From positions 1 through 45,510 of IMG/VR virus record IMGVR_UViG_3300033552_000017: DNA of 45,510 nt; one strand, written 5' to 3'. Source of the DNA: a virus. This document shows positions 25,625 through 44,356 of this stretch, piece by piece. A program made the position numbers and the translations under genes. How positions within the stretch are numbered: the first letter of the stretch is position 1; every line of letters starts with the position of its first letter. Below the pieces are notes generated by a model that was given only the letters and a program-made list of their open reading frames with translations, did not search any database and had not been told where the DNA came from.

Positions 25625-26985
25625 TTATTTAATTCTAGTTTTCATTATCCATTCCTTTAAAAATGTATTTATTGCATATCTAAGGCAATCAAAGTGATCG
25701 GCTAACTGTGATAAATCCTTTCTATTCTTTTTAATAATAGCCCCAAACGCATCACATTGCACCACTCGCATATCCCTAGTCAAGTTAGGGCACGTTTCGG
25801 GATTAACTTTAAAATCATTGAAATTATGTAGAAAGAAGTTACAGTCTGCACGGCTGTTTTCATGTGTTGGATTCCCGGGTACTTTTATCTGTGCACTCGA
25901 CAATCCTAATCCACGCTGCAACTGCATGTAAAGGCTTGCGTTATCCCTTTGACTTATATCGCCACGATTACCCATTGCATCGCCTGTCATTATCATAGTG
26001 CGTGTATTGGCCCCGTACTTAGCCTTTATCCTATCAACCATTTCTCCTATATTACCGTGCATGATCGTAAATTCATCAAATACGTGTAGGTGTTGACCTT
26101 CTTTGTCCGACCATAAATGAAAGAATATACACCCGAACGGATTTAAGTTAAAATCTATCGACATATACAATTGTTTATTTGTATCGTAAATAGCCTGTTT
26201 GCCTAAATGATTTATCGGATTAAACGCGTATAAAAATGGATTTTCAACTTTAAATACATTCCAATCACCGTCCACAAACATACGATATTCGTCTGGTGGC
26301 ATGTTCTCTTTTAAAGATTGGAGGTACTGTGCAGGTACGTGAGGATTGTCTGTGATCTTGGCCGGGATATACGCCCATGATTCAGGCAATTCACCCTTCT
26401 CCCATCTATCATAGAACAATGTTTTTACCCAGCTATGAGAAGGATTGCATGTTGCTATAAACTTAATAGGTGGCATGTTTGGGATAAAATTGGTTCCGCA
26501 CCTCTCAATTATCTTGTAAAATGTTGATTCCTGCAATTCGTTTAATTCATCGGCTCCTGCACCGTTTATTTCAAGACCTCTAAATCTGTTGTGGTCTTTA
26601 TCGGTATCGAAAGATTCAGACATAAATATTAACTGACTTCCGTTATGGTATGTAATAGTCCATGTGTCCCGATTGAAGTCTTTAACGTATGCCGACAATC
26701 CTGCATCGTAAAGCTTCATAAAAGTAGGTATTAGGGTACGCTTTAACGTAGGGAGAGATTCCCGTATAAGAAGCCATTTCGATTTTGGGTATTGCATGCA
26801 TAAAGAATGCATTATAAGTATAAGCCAATAAGACTTACCGCCTCGTATCCCTTTGCCCCTCAATATTTCTATCGAGGGGCAAAGAATATAGCCCCGCCAT
26901 AAAGGATAACCATTTTATCCTTTTGCAGAACTATATTCTTTGCTTCTATTTGTTTTTTTGTGGGCTTTATTATATGTGTTTCCAT
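25625..26985 (-). CDS. terL: Terminase large subunit, frame split in Walker A by a 44-nt gap
   Basis: The ATG at 26985 opens a frame METHIIKPTKKQIEAKNIVL... that ends MVILYGG at codon 31, then meets TAG at codon 39. The correct frame resumes at ATA (26848) with IRGGKSYWL. Joining GGG (26895-26893) to ATA gives YGGIRGGKS, a perfect Walker A, and a 438-aa protein of normal terminase length. Other motifs, in joined numbering: Walker B GAGADE (D131, E132), coupling motif ATCNP (163-167), and RNase H-fold nuclease aspartates in SIDFN (263), TGDAMG (321) and LADHFD near the C-terminus. The frame from TTG 26863 alone lacks the first P-loop glycine. It packages DNA with the portal. Confidence 0.9.
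26849..26943 (-). other. Candidate translational-bypass element in terL
   Basis: The 44 nt from 26892 down to 26849 interrupt Walker A. Takeoff (26895-26893) and landing (26851-26849) codons are both GGG. The gap forms an 11-bp hairpin (26851-26861 with 26874-26884, 12-nt loop containing TAG 26871-26869). An alternative 13-bp stem pairs 26879-26891 with 26931-26943, enclosing a 9-bp stem 26901-26909/26915-26923; it shares bases with the first, so the two exclude each other. GAGGGG precedes the landing site by 4 nt. These are the features of T4 gene 60: matched Gly codons, stop in the gap, gap hairpin, upstream structure and SD-like signal before landing. Confidence 0.75.
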
Positions 26986-27500
26986 GATCTTAGTATTACA
27001 TCTTTAATCGTGGTTGGTTTAACATTATATTCTTTTGCCAGCATATATCTTGTATATACATATGGCTTAAACTTTGCCCTTATTTCTAATACTTGGCATT
27101 CTGTTAGTTTTGATTGTCCATTCTTAGACCCCCTTGCTTTTAATTCTTTAGAACATGTAGGAATTAAAATAAATCCATTTTTAATTGCATGAGCAACATT
27201 CTCTTTGCCTGTACACCATTCAAGGTTTTCAACCCTATTATCATTTTTTATACCGTTGATATGGTTTACCTGAGGCTTATTTTTGGGGTTTGGTATAAAT
27301 GCTTGGGCAACTAATCGGTGTAATTTAATAGTTGAAGCCTTTCCATTTATTATTATAGCGGTTCTTAAATAGCCTTTTTTATCCAATGCAGGCTTAAATT
27401 CCATCCTTTTGCCTGATCCTTTCCAGTTCAAAGTAACAAGTATGCCTGAATCGCTTATTAGATACCTATCGTTTGTATTTAGTATTGTCTTATATTCCAT
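26970..27500 (-). CDS. HNH homing-type endonuclease (NUMOD4-HNH)
   Basis: 176 aa. Residues 1-55 resemble NUMOD4 (DRYLISDSGILVTLNWKG; YLRTAIIINGK). The HNH core is LHRLVAQAFIPNP (H61), VNHINGIKNDNRVENLEW (H80) and the following Asn. The C-terminus (about 125-176, SKLTECQVLEIRAKF; YMLAKEYNVKPTTIKDV) is a DNA-binding helix-turn-helix. It sits alone between terS and terL; its last 16 nt overlap the terL start. Such genes spread by cutting copies of the neighbouring gene that lack them. Its cut site may be in terL near the bypass element. Confidence 0.88.
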   Translation of the reverse strand: MEYKTILNTNDRYLISDSGILVTLNWKGSGKRMEFKPALDKKGYLRTAIIINGKASTIKLHRLVAQAFIPNPKNKPQVNHINGIKNDNRVENLEWCTGKENVAHAIKNGFILIPTCSKELKARGSKNGQSKLTECQVLEIRAKFKPYVYTRYMLAKEYNVKPTTIKDVILRSWKHI

Positions 27501-44215: not shown

Positions 44216-44288
44216 TGCGAGTTGGATGTAACGGCAACACGAAAGTCTCATAAGCTTTTAATTGAGGGTTCGACTCCCTTGCACGCAA
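44216..44288 (+). tRNA. tRNA-Met (CAT)
   Basis: Acceptor TGCGAGT/GCACGCA (6 of 7 pairs, one G-T), short D stem TGT/ACA, anticodon stem AAAGT/GCTTT with loop CTCATAA (anticodon CAT), T stem GAGGG/CCCTT with loop TTCGACT. CCA is not encoded. It could read AUG or, if modified to lysidine, AUA; AUA is a frequent codon in this AT-rich genome. The weak D-arm and one acceptor mismatch keep the confidence moderate. Confidence 0.7.
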
Positions 44289-44356
44289 CTATATAAATTC
44301 GTTGGACTAGAACGAAAACAAGCCTTTAAAAACTTTCTTGCTCGAAAGACAAACCT

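Follow-up and report, generated by a model that had tools for sequence, protein, structure and literature searches.

The terL gene in the window (the whole 45,510-nt stretch of viral DNA analysed here), which is essential for DNA packaging, carries a non-coding, frame-breaking and hairpin-forming insert inside its ATP-binding Walker A motif, and translational bypass is the mechanism best supported by our sequence comparisons for the expression of this gene. An HNH homing endonuclease gene lies beside it, and we consider it very likely that the two constitute a mobile cassette, which combines a homing endonuclease with a translational-bypass insert in terL. Such cassettes would probably be dispersed, self-spreading elements that the ribosome removes from gene expression, with one HNH clade using both inteins and bypass at Walker A. 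To our knowledge, efficient long-range bypassing is firmly established in only one gene of a bacterial virus, T4 gene 60. It has been studied for decades as a single case, and the general rules of bypassing are therefore not known. The terL inserts suggest a spreading family of ribosome jumps, of which there was one proven phage example before.

RESULTS

The window terL is interrupted by 41 nt inside Walker A

The terL gene is on the minus strand. Translation from the ATG at 26985 (METHIIKPTKKQIEAKNIVLQKDKMVILYGGA..) runs into a TAG at codon 39, and IRGGKSYWL.. is encoded in a different frame, as the initial annotation of this DNA had described. The two parts of the gene (exons 1 and 2; Table 1) belong to one terminase. 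Exon 1 aligns with the N-termini of the uninterrupted terL genes of L004 and L056, and exon 2 encodes a terminase large subunit, matching Pfam Terminase_6N at 3.7e-5 (better than the family cut-off) and PHROG terminase at 2e-24. L004 is an IMG/VR contig, the TerL of which is 94% identical to that of the window and has the Walker A motif YGGAIRGGKS. Relative to L004, the alignment shows exactly 41 additional nt in the window terL, located between Ala32 and Ile33; the exon 2 dN/dS of the pair is about 0.03. The L056 terL (64%) has the same Walker A as L004, and the motif length is unchanged in distant relatives having a recognisable Walker A of the YGGAIRGGKS type. A sequence search of the PDB gave no match.

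Table 1. Features of the interrupted terL and its neighbour in the window
Feature	Position	Strand	Basis
HNH_3 homing endonuclease ORF, 176 aa, between terS and terL	26970..27500	-	Pfam HNH_3 2.3e-10; PHROG HNH 3e-42
terL exon 1, 33 codons from ATG to the inferred take-off ATA (METHIIKPTKKQIEAKNIVLQKDKMVILYGGAI)	26887..26985	-	translation
5' stem, 5' arm (GCAAAGAAUAUAGUUCUGC)	26925..26943	-	fold; exon-1 synonymous-recoding z -4.1
Nested 9-bp hairpin inside the 5' stem, AAAGGAUAA-AAUGG-UUAUCCUUU	26901..26923	-	fold
5' stem, 3' arm (GCGGGGCUAUAUUCUUUGC); includes the take-off codon, overlaps the foot of the gap hairpin	26879..26897	-	fold
Inferred take-off codon ATA (Ile33)	26887..26889	-	only matched pair restoring YGGAIRGGKS; at this Walker A position L166 and others have GCT
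38-nt non-coding gap, one perfect 17-bp hairpin with GAAA loop	26849..26886	-	fold, covariation, leave-out model
Gap hairpin: 5' arm; loop; 3' arm	26886-26870; 26869-26866; 26865-26849	-	
TAG closing the exon-1 frame	26869..26871	-	translation
Inferred landing codon ATA, re-pairing without a second decoding	26846..26848	-	L004 alignment, codon-pair comparison
terL exon 2, resuming at CGA (R34 GGKSYWL...)	25625..26845	-	Pfam/PHROG

The initial annotation had placed a 44-nt gap between two GGG codons, the joining of which was said to give an exact Walker A and a protein of normal length. The comparison with L004 gives 41 nt with ATA/ATA boundaries instead, and the product of the GGG join, YGGIRGGKS, is one residue short of YGGAIRGGKS. 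A search for homologues with an uninterrupted YGGIRGGKS had been proposed; uninterrupted homologues were found (L004, L056), but with the longer motif. When all the matched codon pairs that join the frames were compared, only ATA to ATA restored both the sequence and the length of Walker A. We conclude that the two ATA codons, rather than the GGG codons, are likely the boundaries of the insert, because a GGG/GGG hop would remove an alanine that the uninterrupted relatives possess and because the ATA geometry fits the take-off and landing spacing of the gap-bearing relatives described below, which GGG/GGG does not. Among the other pairs, CGA/CGA (T4-like, adjoining the TAG) adds four residues and destroys Walker A, and GGC/GGC changes the first Gly of the motif to Lys.

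Two side observations were made. A lone tRNA gene with the anticodon CAT, called as tRNA-Met, is present at 44216-44289 (+), on the strand opposite to most genes; if it is an Ile tRNA, it could in principle read ATA, which we did not use as evidence. In the TerLs of L005, L057, L062, L067, L070 and others, the C-terminal nuclease half is 53–66% identical to that of the window and the ATPase half is unrelated, and these proteins appear to represent a modular swap between terminases.

Ten further terL loci carry similar inserts

Insertions of 40–50 nt had been proposed as something to look for in TerL homologues, and this proved fruitful: ten further loci, from eight metagenome data sets, have inserts of 40–43 nt in the Walker A of terL, which disrupt the reading frame or introduce stops. 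L166, L235, L251, L252, L253 and L262 were identified first, and L296, L338, L358 and L360 came from a later terL scan, the remaining 69 informative loci of which have an uninterrupted [YF]GGAAGGGKS. Over the 11 loci, the inserts are 40, 41, 42 or 43 nt long, leaving a remainder of 1, 2 or 0 on division by three. The codon pairs at their boundaries are matched or synonymous, being GCT to GCT/GCA (Ala), GGA to GGA (Gly) or ATA to ATA (Ile). All the gap-bearing genomes are metagenomic.

No insert was found in cultured phages, which gave only uninterrupted homologues, those of Flavobacterium phage 11b ([YF]GGAAGGGKS) and Cellulophaga phi10:1. In host genomes, the A1 scan gave no match. The A5 scan turned up a single distant HNH, in a Bacteroidetes MAG, and the sequence read downstream of it contained no terminase. 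The RNA model did not match any of 396 Bacteroidetes-phylum genomes, a weak negative from a run without a positive control. An exact-pattern scan for the window hairpin yielded no further copy, and the alignment of very distant terminases was too poorly conserved for scanning. Our literature searches, which covered an open-access library, turned up no description of a gap-bearing terL family, only the unrelated proposal for the Hau3 terminase.

The insert is a conserved RNA hairpin preceded by an upstream stem

Folding reproduced all three elements noted initially, namely the 11-bp hairpin in the gap, a 13-bp upstream stem and a 9-bp stem nested in the latter, as well as the sharing of bases between the upstream stem and the foot of the gap hairpin (Table 1). 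When G-U pairs are counted, the 11-bp core of the gap stem extends to 17 bp and the upstream (5') stem to 19 bp. The MFE of the 151-nt stretch is -54.5 kcal/mol, compared to -26.7 +/- 3.3 for shuffled sequences (z -8.5, 0/200), and when 150-nt windows were compared along both strands of the 45.5 kb, the most stable ones fell at this stretch. None of 2000 synonymous recodings of exon 1 folded as well as the native stretch.

The gap stem is supported by covariation in the window and nine relatives (0.497 versus 0.247 in shuffled alignments, 0/500; at most 0.206 in slid controls), with 20 doubly changed cells and six pairs showing compensatory changes. Several of its pairs are G-U on the sense strand, which points to RNA. 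In every copy, the conserved core of the stem begins 5–6 nt after the take-off codon and stops 6–9 nt before the landing codon, and the window matches this spacing only when ATA is taken as the codon. A covariance model from which the window and L358 had been left out recovered both of them from 112 kb (20.8 bits with E 0.024 for the window, 22 bits for L358) and nothing else. On these data, the window insert is a divergent copy of the gap family. The initial annotation had also pointed to an SD-like GAGGGG shortly before the landing codon. This sequence is present and similar ones are conserved among the copies, but a separate SD role is unsupported because it is the 3' arm of the conserved gap stem.

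The gap-bearing genes also differ from uninterrupted ones in the folding of exon 1. Its MFE is -19 to -26 kcal/mol in all the gap-bearers and -11.3 +/- 2.6 kcal/mol in 52 uninterrupted relatives whose protein is almost the same (U=0, p=1e-6; this p value is nominal, as the rows are not all independent). The z-scores against synonymous recoding are -1.7 to -5.4 and -0.3 +/- 0.8, respectively. In gap-bearers, exon 1 forms a 5' stem with a 3' arm that reaches or includes the take-off codon, and the uninterrupted relatives are without such a stem. The position of the 5' arm differs between the copies, and the stem may for this reason have arisen more than once. The exon-1 peptides themselves scarcely differ from their counterparts in uninterrupted relatives, and a special nascent-peptide signal like that of T4 gene 60 is accordingly not visible.

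A discrete structured RNA such as this could also be excised, with rejoining of the flanking mRNA, either as a tiny intron or by a nuclease and ligase, and a precise excision would yield the same protein. We consider such removal unlikely. A search of Rfam for a catalytic intron core gave no match near any gathering score, and the insert is far too short for a self-splicing intron. The spacer adjoining the landing codon is not constant in length (6–9 nt). The 5' stem that reaches the take-off codon has no obvious role in excision, whereas it has one in bypass (PMC5009743, PMC11194080).

TerL is evidently made from the interrupted genes

The dN/dS of exon 2 is 0.009–0.044 in comparisons that include gap-bearers and 0.027–0.043 between uninterrupted pairs; from these low values, TerL is evidently being made from the gap-bearing genes. 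A dead gene, or a TerL made only as a split protein or from a downstream start, is therefore very unlikely. A TTG five bases past the TAG (26863) offers a possible start in the window, but initiation there would put K at the first Gly of Walker A. There is no standard start upstream of Walker A in L235 and L338, where a TAA directly 5' of the landing codon closes the downstream frame, nor in L166, L296, L360 and L358, where a TGA is followed by no ATG, GTG or TTG before the landing codon. The stop placed directly before landing in L235 and L338 excludes re-initiation.

The stop that closes the exon-1 frame is the sixth codon after take-off in the window and the second in most relatives, and it is directly adjacent only in L338. 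Stops and strong downstream hairpins do occur at sites of programmed frameshifting and of stop read-through, yet either of these seems scarcely credible here, because the inserts of 40, 41, 42 and 43 nt need three different frame classes and read-through of the in-frame copies would add 14 residues to Walker A. Given the varied frames and codon pairs and the stops before landing, no single frameshift, read-through or re-initiation event covers the set, whereas joining of the two parts does.

The insert moves between terL lineages

The distribution of the insert on the terL tree, in which nine rows are gap-bearing, requires nine changes; well-supported branches force at least six of these. This scattered distribution indicates that the insert moves horizontally. 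Exon 1 plus gap is 99–100% identical among L251, L252 and L253, and the first 1.3 kb of terL differs by 5–9%; between L251 and L252 exon 1 plus gap is identical, with the rest of terL ~5% different. Hairpins can cause sequencing errors, and odd 5-nt inserts occur at the same motif in L141 and L146 (see below), but the probability of a sequencing or assembly artefact is negligible in view of the L251/L252 identity and because 11 contigs, drawn from several independent data sets, have homologous inserts whose stems covary.

An HNH homing endonuclease accompanies the insert

The HNH gene adjoins most of the gap-bearing copies. In the window, the last 16 nt of its ORF overlap the start of terL, and in L004 it is absent, with a short spacer in its place. 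Only a 25-nt stub of its 3' end (L338:508-532) remains between terS and the gap-bearing terL of L338, and L296 and L358 have the gap with no HNH upstream. These three loci indicate that loss of the nuclease need not entail loss of the insert.

Among the first terminase relatives, the best match to the window HNH was an ORF of L068 (55%, 8e-58). This ORF is nested, out of frame, in an intein located in the Walker A of another TerL, and the same holds for L014. The inteins (L068:417-2630 and L014:930-3041; G^C...HN^SGKS) encode the HNH in their mid-part in a different frame.

A scan with the C-terminal domain of the window HNH revealed several dozen loci having this clade directly upstream of terL or within Walker A. 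The settings are inteins, positions beside an intact terL (e.g. YGGGVYGGKT, YGGAASGGKS) and positions beside hairpin inserts. In the HNH tree, the gap-associated nucleases cluster and that of the window is near them. In many phages, the HNH is retained next to an intact terL. HNH genes of this clade stand free immediately upstream of an uninterrupted terL in L122, L124-L127, L129-L137, L144, L145, L150, L151, L153, L157, L201, L204, L205 and L210-L221. The Walker A of these terL genes often has a Val (GGGVYGGKT, GGGVFSGKS), and such sites are possibly naturally resistant to cleavage.

Two further terL genes, beside HNH genes of the wider clade, have 5-nt inserts in Walker A (L141:1690-1694, TAACA, after FGGGA; L146:726-730, TAGCT, after GGGAAGS). 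The two genes form strong 5' stems (MFE -27.6 and -22.7, respectively) and lack the gap hairpin. These inserts resemble the 5' ends of gap elements minus the hairpin, and could be recoding sites, scars or artefacts.

DISCUSSION

In the model that we propose, ribosomes would translate 28–33 codons up to the take-off codon (ATA in the window, GCT or GGA in relatives), where the gap hairpin, placed right after this codon or 5–6 nt from it, would hinder decoding in the A site. The peptidyl-tRNA would then unpair, the 5' stem would zipper behind the ribosome and pull the mRNA, and the ribosome would slide 40–43 nt until the tRNA re-pairs with the matching landing codon. Translation would resume at the next codon and Walker A would be rebuilt. 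The HNH enzyme is presumed to cut the DNA of an intact terL at Walker A, judging from position only, as the same HNH clade is found in inteins of the same motif. The insert would destroy the HNH site and thus protect its own genome, and bypass would render the insert harmless to the phage.

The elements of T4 gene 60, namely a hairpin, a 5' stem, matched codons and a suitable gap length, have counterparts in the window terL, and here also one conserved protein is encoded by two ORFs with a short non-coding gap between them. The comparison with gene 60 in the initial annotation was apt, and the HNH gene adjoining the interrupted gene, which had gone unmentioned, adds to the likeness (mobA/gene 60). 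According to the T4 model, a take-off stem occupies the A site and another stem, on the 5' side, forms behind the ribosome, pulling the mRNA along; the tRNA re-pairs at a matched codon, and sliding is processive for gaps of <56 nt (PMC5009743, PMC3014915, PMC11194080). There are differences. The T4 insert is in a topoisomerase gene and not in terL, the codons of which are ATA, GCT and GGA; its stop directly follows take-off, which is not so in most terL copies; and it has a special nascent-peptide signal, whereas none is visible in the terL gap-bearers. The terL inserts, moreover, have been found many times in different lineages. The RNA models built on the terL gap family did not match the T4 gap; we therefore suggest by analogy that the terL insert would work like gene 60 and make no claim of common descent. 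A 9-mer shared by the T4 and window gaps (ATAGAAATA) was judged to be due to chance. The initial proposal of a second natural case of bypass is thus retained as the best-supported reading, but the case would be one member of a mobile family rather than an isolated one.

A natural family that varies in its codons, gap lengths, hairpins and 5' stems, and for which dozens of uninterrupted genes serve as controls, would make the rules of bypassing comparative and testable. Such a family also lends support to the view that inserts of this type are mobile and shield the genome of a homing endonuclease as introns and inteins do. If this is true, bypass-silenced homing-endonuclease cassettes rank beside introns, which are removed from RNA, and inteins, which are removed from protein. 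Essential genes with such inserts will escape annotation pipelines or be reported in pieces.

Other systems share part of these features. Mitochondria of Magnusiomyces capitatus have many dispersed short inserts that are skipped in translation (PMC5009743). These number 81 per genome, are apparently independent of mRNA context and are not always matched, whereas a single insert was seen here, in a single motif of terL, accompanied by structure upstream and by an HNH gene. Bypass has also been proposed in the Hau3 terminase gene, which is set apart by its description: a much shorter gap, a rare UUA codon and a proposed regulatory function (PMC5009743). The TerL Walker A inteins with a nested HNH ORF (L068, L014, L123 and others) share the terL motif and the HNH clade with the window, but they are hundreds of codons long and spliced as protein; the window insert is a 41-nt hairpin, frame-breaking and containing a stop, in which splicing blocks and an in-frame coding insert are absent. 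For the tape-measure gene of mycobacteriophage Corndog, which is beside an HNH gene, an ACG start or ribosome bypassing has been suggested and splicing was not found (PMC4351075); it is possibly a further HNH-linked case.
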